A stretch of 64,000 nucleotides of DNA from Bradyrhizobium sp. Ec3.3 (GTDB taxonomy: Bacteria; Pseudomonadota; Alphaproteobacteria; Rhizobiales; Xanthobacteraceae), in NCBI RefSeq assembly GCF_000472925.1, contig NZ_AXAS01000003.1, positions 309,340-373,339 on the forward strand. The letters run 5' to 3'. Both the position numbers and the translations under genes were made by a program. Positions 5,625-14,993 of the stretch are shown one piece after another. Under the pieces are notes generated by a model. The model had not been told where the DNA came from. It saw only the letters and a list, made by a program, of their open reading frames with translations, and did no database searches. Within the stretch, counting starts at the first letter, position 1. Each line of letters starts with the position of its first letter.

Positions 5625-6656
5625 CTACAGCCCGACCTTTTTCCATCCTGCATCGACGGCAGCGAAGACCGCGGGGTCGGCAGGATACAACGTGTGAGCG
5701 CCCTGCCGGGTCCTCGCTGCAAACGCCTTCATCGTCATGTTCGGCGTCGGCCCGAAACCCGTGAGCGAATGGTACCACACCTGGCCGATCTTGGCCCAAC
5801 TGTATCCGCCAAGCGTCGTGCAGGCCGTATGGAAGGCGAGGTTCGGCGGCCCGCTGGCGTAATGCGGATCCATGCCGGGCGTAATCTGGGAATATTGGGT
5901 CGGCTGCGGCGCCAGGCAGTGCTTGGCTGCGGGATTGGCCATGTCGCGCAGGCAGGTGAGCCCTTGCTTCTTGGCGGCGGGACCCATGATGTCACGCCCG
6001 ATCAGCCAGTCGGCCTTTTGGACGTTCTGCTTGGCTTGCCACTGCCGGAACATCGAACCGAAACAGTCGGAGATGCTCTCGTTCAGGCCGCCTGCATCGC
6101 CGCTATAGGCAAGCTGGAGGCTGTGCTGGGTCACGCCATGGGTCAACTCATGCCCGATGACGTCGTTGCCTCTGGTGAAGTCGACGAAGATGCTGCCGTC
6201 CCCGTCGCCGTAGATCATCTGCGAACCATTCCACATCGCGTTGTTGTATTTGTTGCCGAAGTGAACCGACGACATCATGGTCATGCCGTGATCATCGATC
6301 GAATTCCGGTTGAAGACCTGCTGGTAGAACTTGGCCACCTTGCTCGTCTCGTTGAAGGTGCGCTTGACGGACCCGTCCGAGGACGTCTTCGGCTTCGGCA
6401 CAGGGCTACCCGGCAGCGTCTGCGTGTGCTTGCAGTCGTACACCGTGATGGACGGCGCCGCCGCAAGCGTGACGAGTCCACTGGCACGCGCGGCGGCAAC
6501 GCTGGTCAATCTCGCAGCCTGCTTCCGCAATTCGCGCAGTTCATGACTGATCTGGACTGTGTCGACCAGCTGCTTGCGAAGCGCAGCAGACAGCTTCTTG
6601 TCGTGGGAGAGCTTGGTCAGAACGTCGTTTGGGATGATGAAACATGAGCACGGCAT
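5625..6656 (-). CDS. Protealysin-like M4 (thermolysin family) zinc metallopeptidase
   Basis: A 343-residue zinc endopeptidase. The N-terminus (CFIIPNDVLTKL) resembles the short protealysin-type propeptide and is not a signal peptide, as in protealysins that act in the cytoplasm or leave by an unusual route. The zinc motif is HELTH at residues 169-173, with the third ligand in NESISD (E193). The likely catalytic histidine is H265 in DPHYASGPP. ATG at 6656 follows GGAG. The inhibitor gene lies directly downstream. The family is confident; physiological targets are unknown. In other bacteria protealysins are linked to actin cleavage and host-cell entry, and that link is not demonstrated here. 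Confidence 0.93.
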   Translation of the reverse strand: MPCSCFIIPNDVLTKLSHDKKLSAALRKQLVDTVQISHELRELRKQAARLTSVAAARASGLVTLAAAPSITVYDCKHTQTLPGSPVPKPKTSSDGSVKRTFNETSKVAKFYQQVFNRNSIDDHGMTMMSSVHFGNKYNNAMWNGSQMIYGDGDGSIFVDFTRGNDVIGHELTHGVTQHSLQLAYSGDAGGLNESISDCFGSMFRQWQAKQNVQKADWLIGRDIMGPAAKKQGLTCLRDMANPAAKHCLAPQPTQYSQITPGMDPHYASGPPNLAFHTACTTLGGYSWAKIGQVWYHSLTGFGPTPNMTMKAFAARTRQGAHTLYPADPAVFAAVDAGWKKVGL

Positions 6657-6889: not shown

Positions 6890-8230
6890 CTACCGGTCCG
6901 GGCTGGCGCGCTCGAACTGGCGGAGCAGCTTGTTGCCGCGCTCGACCGCGGAATCGAGTGCCGCCTGGGCGCCCTTCTTGCCGGCAAAGGCCTGCTCCAG
7001 CTCGTCCTCGATGACGCCGCGGATCAGCACGAAGGAGCCGAGCCGGATGCCCTTCGAGTTCTCCGTCGGCGGATGCAGCGTGATCTGCTCGAAGGAGATC
7101 GCGGCGCCCGGGTTGCGCTCGTAAAAGCCCTGCGCGCGGGTCAGCTCGAAGGCTGCGCGGGTGATCGGAAGGTAGCCTGTGTTCTGGTGCCAGGCCGCCT
7201 GCACGCCTGGCTGCGACAGGTAAGCGAAGAATCTCGCCACGCCCTTGTACTCGTTGCGTGGACGGTCGCGCAGCACCCACAGCGTGGCGCCTCCGATGAT
7301 CGAGTTCTGTGGCGCGCCCTTCACGTCCGGCCAATACGGCATCATGCCGTAGCCGACCTCGAACTTCGAATTGGCCTTGATGTCGGCGCGCGTGCCGGAC
7401 GAGCCGATGAAGATGCCGCATTCGCCGTTCTGGAAGCGCGGCTCGGCCGACTGGCCGCGGCCGCCATAGTCGAACACCTTGTCCTTCTGCCACTCGGCAA
7501 GCTCAGCGACATGGTGCACGAGAAGCGGATTGTTGATGCGCAATTCCGCATCCAGCCCGGCAAAGCCGTTGGCTCTCGTCGCAAGCGGCAGATCGTGAAA
7601 CGCCGAGAAATTCTCGACAAGAATCCAGGACGGCCAGGACGTGGTGAAGCCGCAGGCCGCGCCGCGCTCGCGCAGGCGTTTTGCGGCAGCCCCGAGCTCC
7701 GGCCAGGTTTTTGGCGGCGTCTCCGGATCAAGGCCGGCGTCACGGAACATGGTCTTGTTGTAGTAGAGGATCGGCGTCGAGGCGTTGAACGGGAATGACA
7801 GCAGATTGCCGGCTGCGTCCGTGTAATAGCCGGACACGGCCGGCAGATAGGCATCGGGCGAGAACGGCTCGTTCTGATCCTGCATCAGGCTGAACACGGG
7901 ATAGATCGCGCCCTTGGCCGCGGTCATGGTGGCGGTCGCCACCTCGTTGACCTGGACGATCGCCGGCTGGCCGCGCGAGCGGAAGGCGAAGATCGCCGCC
8001 GTCACCGTCTCGGTGTAGTTGCCCTTGTAGCTCGGCACGATCCGGTAGTCGGATTGCGAGGCATTGAAGTCGGAGGTGAGCTTCTCCAACTGCCGGCCGA
8101 GCTCGCCGGACATCGCGTGCCAGAGCTGGATGTCGGTCGCGGCACGCGCTGGCGAGACCGGGACAATCTGCATCAAGGCGAAGGCCGCTGCGACGGCGAC
8201 GGTCTGCAAAAGACGCAAGGCTCTAACCAC
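6890..8230 (-). CDS. ugpB: UgpB-like extracellular solute-binding protein (family 1), orphan
   Basis: A 446-residue periplasmic protein with a clear signal peptide (hydrophobic to about residue 28, cleavage near SPARA). The mature part begins ATDIQLWHAMSGELG and contains SYKGNYTETV, STPILYYNK and TGYLPITRAAFE. These are strong signatures of the glycerol-3-phosphate-binding protein UgpB within the family-1 sugar-binding proteins. UgpB binds sn-glycerol 3-phosphate or glycerophosphodiesters for an ABC importer. No ugpA, ugpE or ugpC gene is present nearby: the peptidase pair lies downstream and a divergent TRAP binding-protein gene lies upstream. It must work with a transporter encoded elsewhere or in sensing. 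The ligand is inferred from family. Confidence 0.88.
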   Translation of the reverse strand: MVRALRLLQTVAVAAAFALMQIVPVSPARAATDIQLWHAMSGELGRQLEKLTSDFNASQSDYRIVPSYKGNYTETVTAAIFAFRSRGQPAIVQVNEVATATMTAAKGAIYPVFSLMQDQNEPFSPDAYLPAVSGYYTDAAGNLLSFPFNASTPILYYNKTMFRDAGLDPETPPKTWPELGAAAKRLRERGAACGFTTSWPSWILVENFSAFHDLPLATRANGFAGLDAELRINNPLLVHHVAELAEWQKDKVFDYGGRGQSAEPRFQNGECGIFIGSSGTRADIKANSKFEVGYGMMPYWPDVKGAPQNSIIGGATLWVLRDRPRNEYKGVARFFAYLSQPGVQAAWHQNTGYLPITRAAFELTRAQGFYERNPGAAISFEQITLHPPTENSKGIRLGSFVLIRGVIEDELEQAFAGKKGAQAALDSAVERGNKLLRQFERASPDR

Positions 8231-8448
8231 GATCGTTCATCCCGTCTCGCGCGAACAAAAGGCGACTACTTTTGCCCCGTACCTGCTTAAGGCGCGGCAT
8301 GGCTGGTTTCAATCAGGAATAAGAATCGGCCGCGCTGCACAATCGGCACGCTTCGCCGCTCGCGGCAGGATAGCGTTCCCCCCACCTTCTGCTAGATTGC
8401 ATTGAACCTTTTCTTCCCGCCATGGACTCCATCACTGAGGGGTTGAGT

Positions 8449-9444
8449 GTGCCAGTGTTGAGCCGTGCCGAACTCTCGCGGACCGGGGTGGTTTTCGTCG
8501 TGCTCTTGTTCGCGATGTGCGCGACGGGGACGTTTGCGCGCGAGTTTCGCGCCGCCGATACCCAGGCCGAGGACTACCCGACCGTCCAGGCGCTGCGTTA
8601 CATGGGCGCCCTGATCGCGGAACGCACTGGTGGTCGGCATGAGGTCAAGGTGTTCCACTCCCGCCAGCTCGGCGAGGAGAAGGAGACGATCGAGCAGACA
8701 AGGGTCGGCGCGATCGACCTCAACCGAACCAACGTGGCGCTGATCGGCAACTTCGTCCCGGCGATGAATGTACTCGCCATGCCATTCCTGTTCCGCTCCA
8801 TCGAGCACGTGCAAAAAGTGCTGGACGGGCCGATCGGCCGCGAAATCCTCAACAGCTTCGAGCCTTTCGGCTTCGTCGGCCTTGCCTTCTACGATTCCGG
8901 CGCGCGGTCGATCTACAACCGCATCCGGCCGGTGAAGAGCGTGGCCGACCTCAGGGGCTTACGGATCCGAGTCCAGCAGTCGGAGTTGATGTCGGTGATG
9001 ATACGCTCGCTCGGCGCCGAGCCGGTCGAATTGCCCTATGGGCAGGTGCTCACGGGGCTTGCGACCCATCTGATCGATGGTGCGGAAAACAACTGGCCGT
9101 CCTTCGTGACCACGGACCATTACAAATATGCAGGCTACTATACGCTGACCGAACACACGATGAGCCCGGAGGTGCTGGTGATCTCGCTAAAAGCGTGGCG
9201 AAGCCTGTCGGCGGAGGATCAGCAGATCTTTCGCGAGGCCGCGCTGCGCTCCAGCCACTTCATGCGCGAGAAGTGGCGCGATCTGGAGGAGCAGTCGCAG
9301 CGCAAGGCGCAAGCTGCCGGCGTCACCATTGTCAGGGATATCGACCGCAAGCCGTTCGAGGACGCGATGGCCCCGATCTACGCCAAGGCCGCGCAGGATC
9401 CCGCCGCGGCCGCGCTGATCGAACGTATTCGCAAGGTGGAGTGA
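8449..9444 (+). CDS. dctP: TRAP-type solute-binding protein DctP, without DctQM
   Basis: Periplasmic binding protein of about 331 residues with an N-terminal signal segment (VVFVVLLFAMCATGTFA). The TRAP SBP pattern follows: RQLGEEKETIEQTRVGAIDL, MPFLFRSIEHVQKVLDG, then LRGLRIRVQ, where the second arginine of the RxR-type segment usually grips the ligand carboxylate, and DGAENNWPSF. GTG at 8449 has GAGGGG six bases upstream and is preferred; an in-frame ATG at 8422 without a ribosome site is the alternative. There is no DctQ/DctM membrane component. A sensor kinase gene follows 6 bases after the stop, suggesting that this protein presents an organic acid to the kinase and does not feed a TRAP transporter. 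Confidence 0.9.
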   Translation: MPVLSRAELSRTGVVFVVLLFAMCATGTFAREFRAADTQAEDYPTVQALRYMGALIAERTGGRHEVKVFHSRQLGEEKETIEQTRVGAIDLNRTNVALIGNFVPAMNVLAMPFLFRSIEHVQKVLDGPIGREILNSFEPFGFVGLAFYDSGARSIYNRIRPVKSVADLRGLRIRVQQSELMSVMIRSLGAEPVELPYGQVLTGLATHLIDGAENNWPSFVTTDHYKYAGYYTLTEHTMSPEVLVISLKAWRSLSAEDQQIFREAALRSSHFMREKWRDLEEQSQRKAQAAGVTIVRDIDRKPFEDAMAPIYAKAAQDPAAAALIERIRKVE

Positions 9445-9450
9445 GGCCGC

Positions 9451-11526
9451 TTGGCAGCGCTTGGACACAGCGAGAAGGAAAAACTGCCCGGCCCGGTCGG
9501 ACGCTTGCGCGCCCGGATCGTCGGCCTGCTGCGCGCCGTCCCGATCCGCTGGCGCATCCTGTCGATCGCGGCGCTGAACTCCGCCGTGGTCGTGGTGCTG
9601 GTGGCGATGATCTGGAACGGGGCGCAGGTGCTGGCCTCAGCCTGGGACGACCTCCGCCAGGTGCGCGAGTCCGACAAGATCCTGGCGCTGCTCGAAAGCG
9701 AGACCGGGCGCCTGCAAAACCTCATCCACCGCTACATCAACCAGCCGAGCCCGGACCTGTTCGCCGAGATCCTGCTGCTCCGCGAGGCCGTGCTGGGCAC
9801 GCTGACCAACCGCGCCGCCAAGGACCCGATGCTGGCGGGCTCGGTCGAGGAGCTCGAGCGCACCACCGAGCGCTTCCTCAACGGTTTTGGCGAATTGCGC
9901 AGCGTGCAGGCGACCATCGCCAAGACCTATGAGGACCAGGTGCTGGGGCCCGCCAAGGACATGGCCGGGCTCTATTCCATCATCGAAGGCGCCACCGGCC
10001 ATCGCGACGCGCTGATCTGGCCCTCGCTCGGCAAGTCCCGCGAAGCCTTCACCGCCATGCTGGTCGCGGCCAATTCCTACTATCTCTCGCTCGCGTCGGC
10101 TTCCGCCGAGGACGCCCGCCGCAACACCGAGACGATCGAGAAGACCATCCCTGTCATGAGGGATCTCGCCGACAACGATCTCCAGCGCATGGCGCTGGAG
10201 CGGCTCGCCACCCGCACCACCGCGCTGCGCGAGGGCTTTGCAAACCTCTCCGAGCAGCTCACCAGCCGCACCGATCTCTTGCGCAACACCATCGACGCAA
10301 GCCAGGCCGAGGCGATCGGCGCCATCGACGACCTCTCGACCAAGATGCGCCAGCGCGAGCAGCGGGCGCAGGAGACCTTCGACCGAACGCTGTCGGACAT
10401 TTCGAGAAGAGTCCTGTCGATTGCGGTGATCTTCCTCGGCATCATCCTCACCGTCGGCGTGCTGATCGCGCTGTCGATCCGGCTGCCCCTGCAGCAGATC
10501 ATGACGGCGATGCGCGCGATCACGATCGGCGATCTCGACCGCGAGGTGCAGGGCATCAAGGCGCGCGACGAGGTCGGCGCCATGGCGCGCGCAGTGGAAG
10601 TGTTCCGCGAGAATGCGATCGCCAAGCGCAAGACCGAGGACGAGCTGCGCGCATCGAAGGAGAAGGCCGAGAGCGCGCTGCTGGAGCTCAACACCGCGCA
10701 GCAGAACCTGATTGACGCCGAGCGGCTTGCGGCCCTCGGCGGCCTCGTTGCCGGCGTCGCCCACGAGGTCAACAACCCCATCGGCATCAGCCTCACCGTT
10801 GCTTCCAGTTTTGCCCGGCGCAGCGAGATCTTCGAGGCGCAGTTGAAAGGCGACAGCGGCCTGCGCCGCTCGCAGCTCGAGGAGTTCGTGCATTCCTCGC
10901 GCGACGCCTCGCAGCAGCTCGTCGCCAACCTCCAGCGCGCCGGCGAGCTGATCCAGTCGTTCAAGCAGGTCGCGGTCGACCGCTCCCATGCCGAGCGGCG
11001 GCAGTTCAGCTTGAGCGAGGCCACCGACCAGATCATCGCGAGCCTGCGCCCGGTGCTGAAGCGCTCGCCGATTACGCTCAACGTCGACGTGCCGGAGGGG
11101 CTGCTGCTCGACGGCTATCCCGGCTCCTATGGCCAGATCCTGACCAACCTGTTCCTCAATGCCGCCAACCACGCTTTCGCCGACGGCCGCGCCGGCACCA
11201 TCTCGATCTCGGCACGGCCACGCGGCTCTGATGACATCGAGATCAGCTTTGTCGACGACGGCGCCGGCATGACGCCGGACGTGCAGCGGCAGGCCTTTGA
11301 CCCTTTCTTTACCACCCGGCGCAATGAAGGCGGCACGGGTCTCGGCCTCCATATCGTCTATAACCTGGTCACCCAGCAGCTCGGCGGGCGGATGATGCTG
11401 GAATCCAAGCTGGGACAAGGCACCACTTTTCGCATTATCATGCCCCGGGTCGCCAAGGGCGGCATGCAAAGCACAGAGACTGACGGGACTTCTCAATGGC
11501 CGAACAGGACGATGTCCTCCACCTGA
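9451..11526 (+). CDS. Membrane sensor histidine kinase (periplasmic domain-HAMP-HisKA-HATPase)
   Basis: A 691-residue inner-membrane kinase. A first membrane segment (about residues 36-56) precedes a large helical extracytoplasmic region of roughly 260 residues. A second membrane segment (VIFLGIILTVGVLIALSI, about 323-343) is followed by HAMP and a coiled segment. The dimerisation domain contains LGGLVAGVAHEVNNP with phospho-acceptor H438, and the ATPase domain contains LTNLFLNAANHA and GGTGLGLHIVYNLV. The TTG start lies just after dctP. The 3' end overlaps the next gene by 31 bases, so the operon is tightly coupled. The sensory input is probably the DctP-like protein encoded upstream; this is inference from order. 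Confidence 0.92.
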   Translation: MAALGHSEKEKLPGPVGRLRARIVGLLRAVPIRWRILSIAALNSAVVVVLVAMIWNGAQVLASAWDDLRQVRESDKILALLESETGRLQNLIHRYINQPSPDLFAEILLLREAVLGTLTNRAAKDPMLAGSVEELERTTERFLNGFGELRSVQATIAKTYEDQVLGPAKDMAGLYSIIEGATGHRDALIWPSLGKSREAFTAMLVAANSYYLSLASASAEDARRNTETIEKTIPVMRDLADNDLQRMALERLATRTTALREGFANLSEQLTSRTDLLRNTIDASQAEAIGAIDDLSTKMRQREQRAQETFDRTLSDISRRVLSIAVIFLGIILTVGVLIALSIRLPLQQIMTAMRAITIGDLDREVQGIKARDEVGAMARAVEVFRENAIAKRKTEDELRASKEKAESALLELNTAQQNLIDAERLAALGGLVAGVAHEVNNPIGISLTVASSFARRSEIFEAQLKGDSGLRRSQLEEFVHSSRDASQQLVANLQRAGELIQSFKQVAVDRSHAERRQFSLSEATDQIIASLRPVLKRSPITLNVDVPEGLLLDGYPGSYGQILTNLFLNAANHAFADGRAGTISISARPRGSDDIEISFVDDGAGMTPDVQRQAFDPFFTTRRNEGGTGLGLHIVYNLVTQQLGGRMMLESKLGQGTTFRIIMPRVAKGGMQSTETDGTSQWPNRTMSST

Positions 11527-13244
11527 TCGACGACACCGCCACCGCGGCGGAGGATACGACTGCGCGGAAATGGAAGATCGCCGTCATCGACGACGATCCC
11601 GCCGTGCATGACGGTACGCGCTTTGCGCTCTCGGACTACACCCTGAACGGCCAGGGTCTCGAGATCCTCTCCGCCTATTCGGCGGCCGAGGGCCGCAAGC
11701 TGATGCGCGAGCACAACGACGTCGCCGCCGTGCTGCTCGACGTCATCATGGAGACGGATGTCGCGGGGCTCGAGCTCGTCGAATTCATCCGCAACGAGGT
11801 CCGCAACGAGACCGTCCGCATCATCCTGCGCACGGGACAGCCCGGCCAGGCGCCGGAGCGGCGCGTCATCGTCCAGTACGACATCAACGACTACAAGGCG
11901 AAGACCGAGCTCACCGCCGACAAGCTGTTTACCTCGCTGACCGCGGCGCTGCGCTCCTATCAGCAGCTCGAGCGCATGGTGCAGACGCGGCGCGGGCTCG
12001 AGATCATCATCGACGCTGCCTCCACGCTCTATGACTTCAAGTCGATGCAGCGGCTCGCCGAGGGCGTGCTGACCCAGCTCGCCTCGCTGCTTAACGTCGA
12101 CTGCGCCGGTATACTGGTACTGCGCGACAATGGCGGATCGGCGGGCGCGGAGCTGTCGGTGCTGGCGGGAAGTGGCTGCTACAGCCGCTTCATCGGCACC
12201 ACTACATCGAAAGCGCTCGACCCCGATCTGCGCGCGCTCGTGGAAGCCGCCTTCCAGCGCCGCAAAAACGAATTCGCCGACCATCGCAGCGTGCTCTATT
12301 TGCGCACCGGCAGCGGCCGCGAGGTCGTGGTTTTGCTCCAGGCCGAACGCGATCTCTCGGAAACCGACCGCTCGCTGGTCGAGATTTTCTCCAGCCGGCT
12401 CTCGATCGCCTTCGACAACGTCATTCTCTATCAGCAGCTCCAGGACGCCAATACCCAGCTCGAGGACCGTGTCGCCCAGCGCACCCGTGCCTTGATGCAG
12501 GCCAACCGGCGCCTCTCCGCGCAGTGGCTGCGGCTCCAGCGCGCCAACGGCTTCAAGAACGAGATTCTGGGCACCGTCGCCCATGACCTGAAGAATCCGC
12601 TCGGCGTCATCCTCGGCCGTACCGAGATGCTGAAGGAGCTGATCACGACCGGCGCCTCGAGCGGCGGCGTCATCGCGCAGGTCGATCACATTCGCGACGC
12701 CACCAAACGCCTGACCACGATGGTCGATCACCTGATCTCGGATGCGATGGCAGACGCTTTCGACATCACGATCCGCCGCGAACCTGTTGACGTCGCTTCC
12801 CTGGTGCAGGAGGTCGCCGAGGCCAACCAGCCGCTCGCCGTCAACAAGCAGCAGACGATTGGCGTCACCGCCCCTGCAAACATCGTCACCATGTGCGACA
12901 CCGACCGCATCCGCGAGGCGATCGACAATTTGATCAGCAATGCGATCAAATACAGTCCGATCGGCGGCAGGATCGGCGTGACCGTCACGCATGAGGGCAG
13001 CGACACCGTCATTCGCGTCAATGACGAGGGCGCGGGCCTGTCGCCGGAGGATTTGGGCCGCCTTTTCGGCCGATTCCAGCGGCTTTCCGCAAAACCGACC
13101 GCGGGCGAGAGCTCGACAGGCCTTGGGCTTTCGATCGTCAAGCGTATTATCGACATGCACGGCGGCGAGGTGACCGCCGCGAGCGACGGCCCCGGCAAGG
13201 GCGCGACCTTCACCATCACGCTACCTTCGACCGAATTGCCATAG
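11496..13244 (+). CDS. Hybrid receiver-DUF3369-histidine kinase
   Basis: A soluble 582-residue signalling protein. A receiver domain (WKIAVIDDDPAVHD, with phospho-acceptor D82 in VLLDVIME) is followed by a DUF3369/GAF-like domain (ERMVQTRRGLEIIIDAAS onward to about residue 320). A HisKA domain follows with H363 in TVAHDLKNPLG, then an HATPase domain (EAIDNLISNAIKYS, STGLGLSIVKRI). No membrane segment is seen. The order suggests a phosphorelay: the membrane kinase encoded upstream phosphorylates this receiver, or the protein passes phosphate to the response regulator encoded 24 bases downstream. Domain calls are firm and the direction of phosphate flow is inferred. Confidence 0.92.
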   Translation: MAEQDDVLHLIDDTATAAEDTTARKWKIAVIDDDPAVHDGTRFALSDYTLNGQGLEILSAYSAAEGRKLMREHNDVAAVLLDVIMETDVAGLELVEFIRNEVRNETVRIILRTGQPGQAPERRVIVQYDINDYKAKTELTADKLFTSLTAALRSYQQLERMVQTRRGLEIIIDAASTLYDFKSMQRLAEGVLTQLASLLNVDCAGILVLRDNGGSAGAELSVLAGSGCYSRFIGTTTSKALDPDLRALVEAAFQRRKNEFADHRSVLYLRTGSGREVVVLLQAERDLSETDRSLVEIFSSRLSIAFDNVILYQQLQDANTQLEDRVAQRTRALMQANRRLSAQWLRLQRANGFKNEILGTVAHDLKNPLGVILGRTEMLKELITTGASSGGVIAQVDHIRDATKRLTTMVDHLISDAMADAFDITIRREPVDVASLVQEVAEANQPLAVNKQQTIGVTAPANIVTMCDTDRIREAIDNLISNAIKYSPIGGRIGVTVTHEGSDTVIRVNDEGAGLSPEDLGRLFGRFQRLSAKPTAGESSTGLGLSIVKRIIDMHGGEVTAASDGPGKGATFTITLPSTELP

Positions 13245-13268
13245 TTTGAGTGCCAGGATCTGAATGAC

Positions 13269-14006
13269 ATGACACAGAGCCAGCACATCATGATCGTCGA
13301 CGACGAGGCGCCGGCCCGGGAAATGGTCGGCGATTACCTCAAGATGCACGGCTTCACCGTGACGCTGTGCGACGGCGGCAAGTCCTTACGCACCGCGATC
13401 CAGGGCAGCATGCCCGATCTCGTCGTGCTCGATCTCAACATGCCCGAGGAAGACGGCCTGTCGATCATCCGCGACCTCAAGAGCCGCATCAACGTGCCGG
13501 TGATCATGCTCACGGCGACCGCGAGCCCGATCGACCGCGTCGTGGGGCTCGAGCTCGGTGCCGACGATTACGTGGCCAAACCCTGCGAGCTCAGGGAGTT
13601 GATGGCACGCATCCGCTCGGTGCTGCGGCGGAGCATGCCGGTGAAGGCGGTGGCGGCGGAAACGGCGGCAGCGAAATCCGACAAGGATCAGCTGGTGCGC
13701 TTCGGGACAAAATGGCTCGACCTCGAAGCCCAGGCGCTGCGCGACGACGAAGGCAACGAGCATCCGCTGACCGCATCCGAATTCGGGCTGCTCAAAGTGT
13801 TCGCGGCCAATCCGAAGCGCGTGCTGTCGCGCGAGCGTCTCCTGGAGCTCGCCAATGCGCGCGACGCCGAGGCCTTCGACCGCGCCGTCGATCTGCGCAT
13901 CATGCGCATTCGCCGCAAGATCGAGCCCGACCCGACCAAGCCCGCCGTGATCCGCACGATCAGAGGCGGCGGCTATCTGTTCTCGCCGTCCGGCGAGAAG
14001 GCGTAG
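13269..14006 (+). CDS. OmpR-family response regulator
   Basis: A 245-residue DNA-binding output protein. The receiver domain opens with IMIVDDEAPAREM, the phospho-acceptor is D55 in VVLDLNMPEEDG, and the signature lysine is in DDYVAKP. A winged-helix domain follows (LTASEFGLLKVFAANPKRVLS, then VIRTIRGGGYLF). It is the final gene of the dctP-kinase-hybrid run and the likely transcriptional output. No obvious target transporter lies next to it, except perhaps the divergent ugpB-like gene, so its regulon is open. Confidence 0.94.
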   Translation: MTQSQHIMIVDDEAPAREMVGDYLKMHGFTVTLCDGGKSLRTAIQGSMPDLVVLDLNMPEEDGLSIIRDLKSRINVPVIMLTATASPIDRVVGLELGADDYVAKPCELRELMARIRSVLRRSMPVKAVAAETAAAKSDKDQLVRFGTKWLDLEAQALRDDEGNEHPLTASEFGLLKVFAANPKRVLSRERLLELANARDAEAFDRAVDLRIMRIRRKIEPDPTKPAVIRTIRGGGYLFSPSGEKA

Positions 14007-14236: not shown

Positions 14237-14263
14237 GTTTCGTCGCCGGCCCCACGACGAAAC
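14237..14263. promoter_or_regulatory. Perfect inverted repeat upstream of the ECF sigma factor gene
   Basis: GTTTCGTCG and CGACGAAAC form a perfect nine-base inverted repeat separated by nine bases, about 120 bases before the sigma factor start. The right arm plus AATT (13 bases, 14255-14267) recurs identically at 15062-15074, just after the sigma factor gene. The repeat could be a regulator site or part of an autoregulated promoter; the sequence alone does not decide this. Confidence 0.4.
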
Positions 14264-14381
14264 AATTTGGCAGCGCACGAAACCATTTTCCGCTTGTCGC
14301 GCAGACATCCCGAAACGCTAGCTCTTTAACACTTTGGTCCAAGGAAACGCCGCTCGGTTGCGGCGTTACGGGGAGCCAGTC

Positions 14382-14993
14382 ATGCAGAACGTCGTCGCCA
14401 TCAACGCCCAGGCCAGCCAGGGCATCCTTGCCGCTCAGGCGACATCGGACGAAATGCTTCTGGAGAGCGTCGCCGACGGCAACCGGACGGCCATGCACAT
14501 CCTGTACTGCCGTCACAATGTGCGGGTGTACCGCTTCATCCTGCGCATCGTGCGCGACGCCACCACGGCCGAAGACCTCGTGAGCCAGGTCTTCCTGGAC
14601 GTGTGGCGGACCGCCAGCCAATTCCAGGGCCGCTCGCAGGTTTCGACCTGGCTGCTCTCGATCGCCCGCTTCAAGGCGCTGACCGCGATGCGCCAGCGCC
14701 GCTTCGAGGACATCGACCAGGAAGACGTGCGCCGGATCCCGGACGAGCACGACACGCCGGAAACCGCCCTCGACCGCAACGACACCAGCGCGATCCTGCG
14801 CGCCTGCGTGGCCAAGCTGTCGCCGGCGCACCGCGAGATCATCAACCTCGTCTACTACCACGAGAAATCGGTGGAGGAGGTCGGCCAGATCATCGGCATC
14901 CCCCAGAGCACGGTGAAGACGCGGATGTTCTATGCCCGCAAGCAACTCGCCGATTTGCTTAAGGTTGCCGGCGTCGACCGCTTCGCAGCCTAA
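14382..14993 (+). CDS. ECF-type RNA polymerase sigma factor
   Basis: A 203-residue sigma-70 family protein of the extracytoplasmic-function class, with only regions 2 and 4. Region 2 spans VRVYRFILRIVRDATTAEDLVSQVFLDVW with STWLLSIARFKAL. Region 4 carries LSPAHREIINLVYYHEKSVEEVGQIIGIP and STVKTRMFYARKQL, the helix-turn-helix for the -35 element. The ATG at 14382 has GGGAG at good spacing, so it is chosen over a TTG 16 codons upstream. No anti-sigma gene is adjacent, and it is not flanked by phyR or nepR, so it does not look like EcfG. The signal and regulon are unknown. Confidence 0.93.
   Translation: MQNVVAINAQASQGILAAQATSDEMLLESVADGNRTAMHILYCRHNVRVYRFILRIVRDATTAEDLVSQVFLDVWRTASQFQGRSQVSTWLLSIARFKALTAMRQRRFEDIDQEDVRRIPDEHDTPETALDRNDTSAILRACVAKLSPAHREIINLVYYHEKSVEEVGQIIGIPQSTVKTRMFYARKQLADLLKVAGVDRFAA

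Follow-up and report, generated by a model that had tools for sequence, protein, structure and literature searches.

We analysed a 64,000-nucleotide stretch (hereafter the window; contig C67) of the 10.03 Mb genome of Bradyrhizobium sp. Ec3.3, in which a gene for a DctP-type binding protein of the tripartite ATP-independent periplasmic (TRAP) transporter class heads a run of four genes on the same strand. The three genes behind dctP encode a membrane histidine kinase, a soluble receiver-DUF3369-kinase protein (hereafter the receiver kinase) and an OmpR-type response regulator. The operon and its flanking elements are as follows.

8449-9444, + strand: DctP-type (family 7) binding protein, kinase-linked subfamily (PF03480, 273 bits; NF037995, 245 bits)
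9451-11526, + strand: membrane histidine kinase, TTG start (HAMP and HATPase domains; HisKA-like)
9622-10404, + strand: extracytoplasmic sensor domain, kinase residues 58-318, predicted double helical bundle (from a model; limits set by eye)
11496-13244, + strand: receiver-DUF3369-HisKA-HATPase protein (domain profile matches)
13269-14006, + strand: OmpR-type response regulator (domain profile matches)
8402-8448, + strand: conserved leader upstream of dctP, candidate promoter (alignment of 16 loci)
6890-8230, - strand: UgpB-like binding protein, divergent from dctP (NCBIfam UgpB equivalog, 563 bits against a cut-off of 411)
14334-14993, + strand: extracytoplasmic function (ECF) sigma factor gene, conserved neighbour (NCBIfam NF009168)

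The initial annotation had placed the same four genes at the same positions, and its gene identities, the 6-base spacing between dctP and the kinase gene, the 31-base overlap of the kinase and receiver kinase genes and the absence of DctQ or DctM genes among those adjoining dctP in the window all hold; only its title, which spoke of a three-gene operon, miscounts the four genes. The regulator gene starts 24 bases after that of the receiver kinase. The GTG start of dctP at 8449 is supported because the ribosome-binding site and a GTG or TTG codon are kept in aligned relatives, whereas the position of the in-frame ATG at 8422, present in the window and in locus L123, holds no start codon in 14 of the 16 aligned relatives. 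The HisKA profile matches the membrane kinase weakly (E 0.04, below the cut-off), although the His box is plain.

To assess conservation, we used samples of 149 genomes of the window's family, 297 of its order, 289 of its class and 349 of its phylum, the searches scoring only the best candidates per genome, together with aligned locus rows that include near relatives. The kinase sensor was found in 52 of the 149 family-sample genomes. The same gene order, with dctP first and then the genes for kinase, receiver kinase and regulator, is seen in three families (f1, f20 and f28) of the taxonomic order and, outside the window's family, is kept in 12 f20 and three f28 genomes; the synteny check proposed in the initial annotation thus came out positive, the arrangement is beyond chance since it recurs across three families, and we rejected the idea that it is unique to the window. 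The dctP-kinase gap measures 5-7 bases in 89 of the 110 aligned rows with dctP, the overlap of 31 bases is seen again in 104 of the 136 rows scored, and the regulator is present in 126 of the 131 rows reaching far enough. Among the matches listed, the closest kinase from a named record is that of Bradyrhizobium iriomotense (97%). Further out, the kinase, receiver kinase and regulator are present in L212-L216 (sensor 25-26% alike) and L211 (41%) with no dctP match, and the stretches fetched around more remote kinases whose sensors match weakly (L217-L231) gave no match to dctP, ugpB, the receiver kinase or the regulator.

Several loci depart from this picture. L180, L191, L192, L193 (genus g10) and L199 carry the kinase and receiver kinase with no matching OmpR-type regulator downstream in the stretch examined; in L199 a match to the regulator was detected upstream, on the opposite strand. 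The operon of L076, from a record titled Frankia sp. RB7, is 85-98% identical to Bradyrhizobium, and the record is therefore probably mislabelled or mixed.

The DctP of the window belongs to a subfamily that is strictly associated with this kinase. In the family sample, 23 of the 149 genomes carry a DctP at 58% identity or above (the next-best DctP is at 52%), and all 23 adjoin the kinase; in the order sample, 22 of the 297 genomes have one at 61% or above (next-best 51%), again all beside the kinase by coordinates. Five genomes being shared, the binding-protein gene is genetically linked to the kinase gene in 40 of 40 distinct genomes. The class sample contains a single member of the subfamily, the window's own, and the phylum sample six, all within the genus.

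DctP could also be a transport protein that feeds a DctQM pair encoded elsewhere, with the kinase cluster merely controlling its supply. The genome would allow this, as it carries 17 DctP-family genes and a dctPQM set on contig C78; the initial annotation had named DctQM genes in the same genome that use this binding protein, together with a kinase that responds normally without DctP, as observations that would count against a sensing role. DctQM genes are indeed there, which bears out half of the first observation, but the C78 set has its own DctP, only 50% identical to the linked one, which may or may not share that DctQM pair. Moreover, seven positions (Q39, H70, E76, M181, Q199, V220 and A287) are fixed in linked DctPs and absent from eight unlinked relatives (46-51% identity), four of which, that of C78 included, are followed by DctQ and DctM according to Pfam; the stretches around the other four gave no clear gene call. 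With the invariable kinase linkage, these differences make a transport role quite improbable. DctP seems instead to represent a subfamily dedicated to the kinase, one that has branched off from the uronate-type TRAP binding proteins and is no longer encoded together with DctQM.

The solved chains closest to DctP are 4n8y (E 5e-101), 4mhf, 4mij, 4x8r and 4ovr, of which we take 4n8y, 4mij, 4x8r and 4ovr to have uronate-type ligands. The protein in 4mhf is reported as a glucuronate and galacturonate binder (PMC7660916). All 109 linked DctPs retain R153, R174 and N214, which presumably form the two arginines and the asparagine of a carboxylate/uronate pocket; these three residues were equated with the pocket residues described in PMC7660916 by their spacing and through the 4mhf alignment rather than one with STM3169 itself. 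The nearest solved relatives, being uronate-type TRAP binding proteins, point to a sugar acid more than to a simple dicarboxylate, which narrows the organic acid proposed in the initial annotation. Judging from the residues that set the linked proteins apart, the differences at Q39, M181 and Q199 could shift ligand specificity, and the likeliest ligand would be a sugar acid that is perhaps not galacturonate itself.

We modeled residues 1-420 of the membrane kinase from 30 close sequences (mean predicted local distance difference test score 74, predicted template modelling score 0.49). The large extracytoplasmic region noted previously is present and, in the model, is all-helical and spans about 260 residues. 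A Foldseek search returned four McpS chains at the top (E 2.7e-5 to 1.7e-4), followed by TorS (0.006), and VIA-align superimposed the model on McpS with a Z score of 17.3 (root-mean-square deviation 2.9 over 229 residues) and on TorS with a Z score of 15.1 (2.7 over 215 residues), TorS-TorT complexes reaching about 14.6; a Z score of about 13 can be attained by chance among helical bundles. The sensor is thus predicted to be a double four-helix bundle resembling those of TorS and McpS. By sequence, no stretch of the first 400 residues matches any solved structure, the Pfam helical bimodular (HBM) profile finds nothing in the kinase at E 0.1 or better, and the kinase falls below the NCBIfam TMAO_torS equivalog cut-off (94.1 against 676.5 bits). 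The fold is one through which McpS binds acids directly and CtpL reads loaded PstS (PMC5126104).

The kinase match is broken in two cases. In L200-L202 (three f28 genomes) the match is broken between HAMP and kinase by about 280-380 extra bases, and a further domain may therefore sit there. In L032 (G147 C101) the kinase beside dctP is interrupted and matches in two parts, one of them with an internal TAA.

The residues examined for phosphotransfer are intact. H438 and the ATP-site residues of the membrane kinase are invariant in 133 rows, as are D82, K134 and H363 of the receiver kinase, and the 24-residue phosphotransfer checks pass in these rows, the exceptions being one gap and one K/R substitution. 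The His box of the membrane kinase reads H-E-V-N-N-P and that of the receiver kinase H-D-L-K-N-P, a type often partnered by OmpR-type regulators; the regulator of the window has NCBIfam TorR as its second-best match, below the cut-off of that profile. His boxes and gene order together suggest that the receiver is the substrate of the first kinase and the regulator that of the second. The DUF3369 domain of the receiver kinase is the only one in the genome. Elsewhere it is reported alongside HD-GYP and receiver domains (PMC9756655).

Taken together, these data lead us to propose, with a probability of roughly 0.55, that DctP docks on a TorS/McpS-like sensor, that phosphate passes via the second kinase to the regulator and that DctP is a dispensable input; the ligand class, the docking, the direction of flow and the targets are what we infer. 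DctP would bind a hexuronate-like sugar acid in the periplasm and dock on the helical sensor of the membrane kinase. The latter would phosphorylate D82 of the receiver kinase, and the H363 kinase module would in turn phosphorylate the OmpR-type regulator. Since DctP is dispensable, the kinase must have another input, which could be a directly bound ligand or another binding protein.

Several observations weigh against this proposal. Operon company alone is no proof that DctP and the sensor interact, and the unrelated helical human TTYH proteins reach a Z score of 15.4 against the sensor model over 134 residues. The dctP gene is missing from 29 of the 52 kinase-bearing genomes of the family sample, and yet the sensor remains constrained in its absence (ratio of nonsynonymous to synonymous substitution rates 0.06-0.19 in eight dctP-less pairs, compared with 0.02-0.28 in dctP-bearing pairs), so DctP is not essential. 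The contact signal that we sought in branch rates (see below) likewise fails the kinase control within the family: the kinase domain also evolves faster without dctP (medians 0.61 with and 0.89 without, p 0.0007), and the ratio of distal bundle to kinase is level there (p 0.72). The phosphorelay put forward in the initial annotation therefore survives in its link between DctP and kinase, its TorS-like predicted fold and its intact phosphotransfer residues, whereas the notion that DctP gates it sits poorly with the many dctP-less genomes.

The same losses are what would be expected if the kinase sensed an organic acid directly, in the manner of McpS, with DctP a co-transcribed helper, scavenger or feedback partner that makes no contact with the sensor. 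Many genomes without dctP retain the kinase under constraint, and McpS, a direct acid binder (PMC5126104), is the best fold match. We nevertheless consider this account unlikely, if worth keeping in view, as the linked DctP subfamily is never found away from the kinase and its own fixed residues suggest a specific partner.

Under the docking proposal, DctP looks like an ancestral input that can be dispensed with. We gathered 80 named loci by kinase match: 70 have a near-full dctP (in one, L060, the match begins only at residue 52), eight are without it and two lack upstream DNA. Clear remnants of dctP precede intact kinase genes in L087, L109, L125, L159, L160 and L199; L095 retains the signal-peptide end, L117 and L111 have weak remnants, and the sequence upstream of the L110 and L124 kinases holds none worth naming. 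On a tree of 80 receiver-kinase proteins built by a quick method, the state of dctP changes at least 13 times, 10 of these being forced by well-supported branches. The DctP tree (48 rows) follows families, its distances correlating with those of the receiver kinase (Spearman 0.72); f20 and f28 stay clades and the isolated case L184 groups with the Bradyrhizobium core, and a recent arrival of DctP is accordingly not favoured. Because the DctP tree follows families, and considering the remnants and state changes, the data favour inheritance with repeated loss over repeated gain. With the sensor constrained and the phosphotransfer residues invariant, the kinases are maintained, under purifying selection, without DctP.

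We next compared branch rates, on branches that are not independent and with p values left uncorrected for the number of ratios tried, which was nine in two row sets and another five, also in two sets. The median ratio of sensor to receiver-kinase rates is 0.64 with dctP and 0.97 without over all rows (p 0.0001); for the family alone the medians are 0.79 and 0.94 (p 0.07). The rise is most marked in the distal bundle (family medians 0.83 with and 1.30 without, p 0.008; proximal bundle p 0.58), which is also the faster on the dctP-less side in seven of eight sister pairs (proximal, four of eight with two ties), and its ratio to the kinase domain differs over all rows (p 0.02). As a sign of contact between DctP and the sensor, these rates are suggestive only.

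The divergent ugpB gene raises the question of whether UgpB, rather than DctP, is what the kinase reads today in the window's family. The genome encodes a second UgpB above the cut-off (contig C71, 527 bits), which has two permease genes and an ATPase gene behind it; Pfam identifies the ATPase and one permease, and the second permease was recognised by eye. The copy in the window has no permease or ATPase genes alongside, its neighbours being a peptidase gene and dctP. In 111 of the 130 family rows the gene sits divergently beside the operon, and among the family loci fetched, it is intact in 18 of the 23 that are without dctP but show enough upstream DNA. It is, however, absent from the other five and from all 17 rows outside the family, and a role as a target gene, or none beyond that of a neighbour, is just as conceivable, so that a present-day switch to UgpB strikes us as very improbable. 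UgpB may be a target, a second input or a mere neighbour of the operon in which DctP is the proposed input. The peptidase gene beside ugpB (5625-6656, - strand) encodes an M4 thermolysin-like metallopeptidase and is within reach in only part of the relatives' loci.

An extension of the docking proposal, which we put forward speculatively, is that the kinase integrates two inputs, one bundle reading loaded DctP and the other binding an acid directly, and that UgpB may have joined or replaced DctP within the family. If so, lineages could drop DctP and stay functional, and the natural losses of dctP would provide ready knock-outs for dissecting how direct and protein-borne signals merge in a helical bimodular sensor. 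Close relatives with and without dctP would in any case permit a direct comparison of assisted and unassisted forms of one kinase, with implications for the way in which helical sensors integrate direct ligands and binding proteins. If the docking proposal is true, a TRAP-type binding protein has been given over to signalling in an agriculturally important genus, and the likely class of ligand, the uronates, is released by plant cell walls.

The leader 5' of dctP consists of TTGAACCTTTT and, about 13 bases later, GAC, followed by the ribosome-binding site (16-locus alignment), and is probably a promoter. A looser form is present upstream in 76 of the 110 dctP-bearing rows and in 15 of the 37 dctP-less ones, none of these being from outside the family. 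The full element has one match in the whole genome (zero in the reversed control), hence it yields no target list and was discarded as a regulon marker. Downstream, the ECF sigma gene is found 3' of the operon in 101 of the 112 family rows reaching far enough; an inverted repeat seen by eye upstream of it (GTTTCGTCG/CGACGAAAC, 14237-14263) could be an operator.

About ten cases are reported of binding proteins that stimulate kinases (PMC9602780). Nearest to the proposed arrangement are TorT-TorS, BctC-BctE and DctB-DctS. In TorT-TorS-TorR, which senses trimethylamine N-oxide, a binding protein reads the ligand and docks on a double-helical-bundle sensor, the fold that we predict here. TorR is an OmpR-type regulator, as in the window operon; TorT, unlike the DctP of the window, is not a DctP-type protein. 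TorS also joins receiver and Hpt domain in one chain, whereas in the window the receiver sits before a separate second kinase. In Bacillus subtilis, which has a PF03480 match, DctB is of the same binding-protein family as DctP and the PAS-type sensor DctS works with a transporter. A title by Graf et al. presents C4-dicarboxylate binding protein DctB and kinase DctS as a sensor unit (cited in PMC4160245); DctB-DctS-DctR differs from the window in having no second kinase. In the citrate system BctC-BctE-BctD of Bordetella, a tripartite-transporter binding protein is reported to be needed for full signalling via the adjacent kinase (PMC5812351, PMC9602780), but BctC belongs to the TctC family and remains part of a complete transporter. 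The HBM receptors McpS and CtpL are chemoreceptors, while the window protein, which shares the predicted fold of McpS, is a kinase without a Pfam HBM match. In the titles and abstract openings searched, with subscription journals mostly outside the coverage, we found nothing describing this system, whose gene order the initial annotation could not place in a described system. The order can nonetheless be placed, as a conserved variant of binding-protein-assisted two-component systems, and what sets it apart is the combination of a transporter-free DctP subfamily, a double-bundle sensor, a receiver-fronted second soluble kinase and widespread loss of the binding protein.

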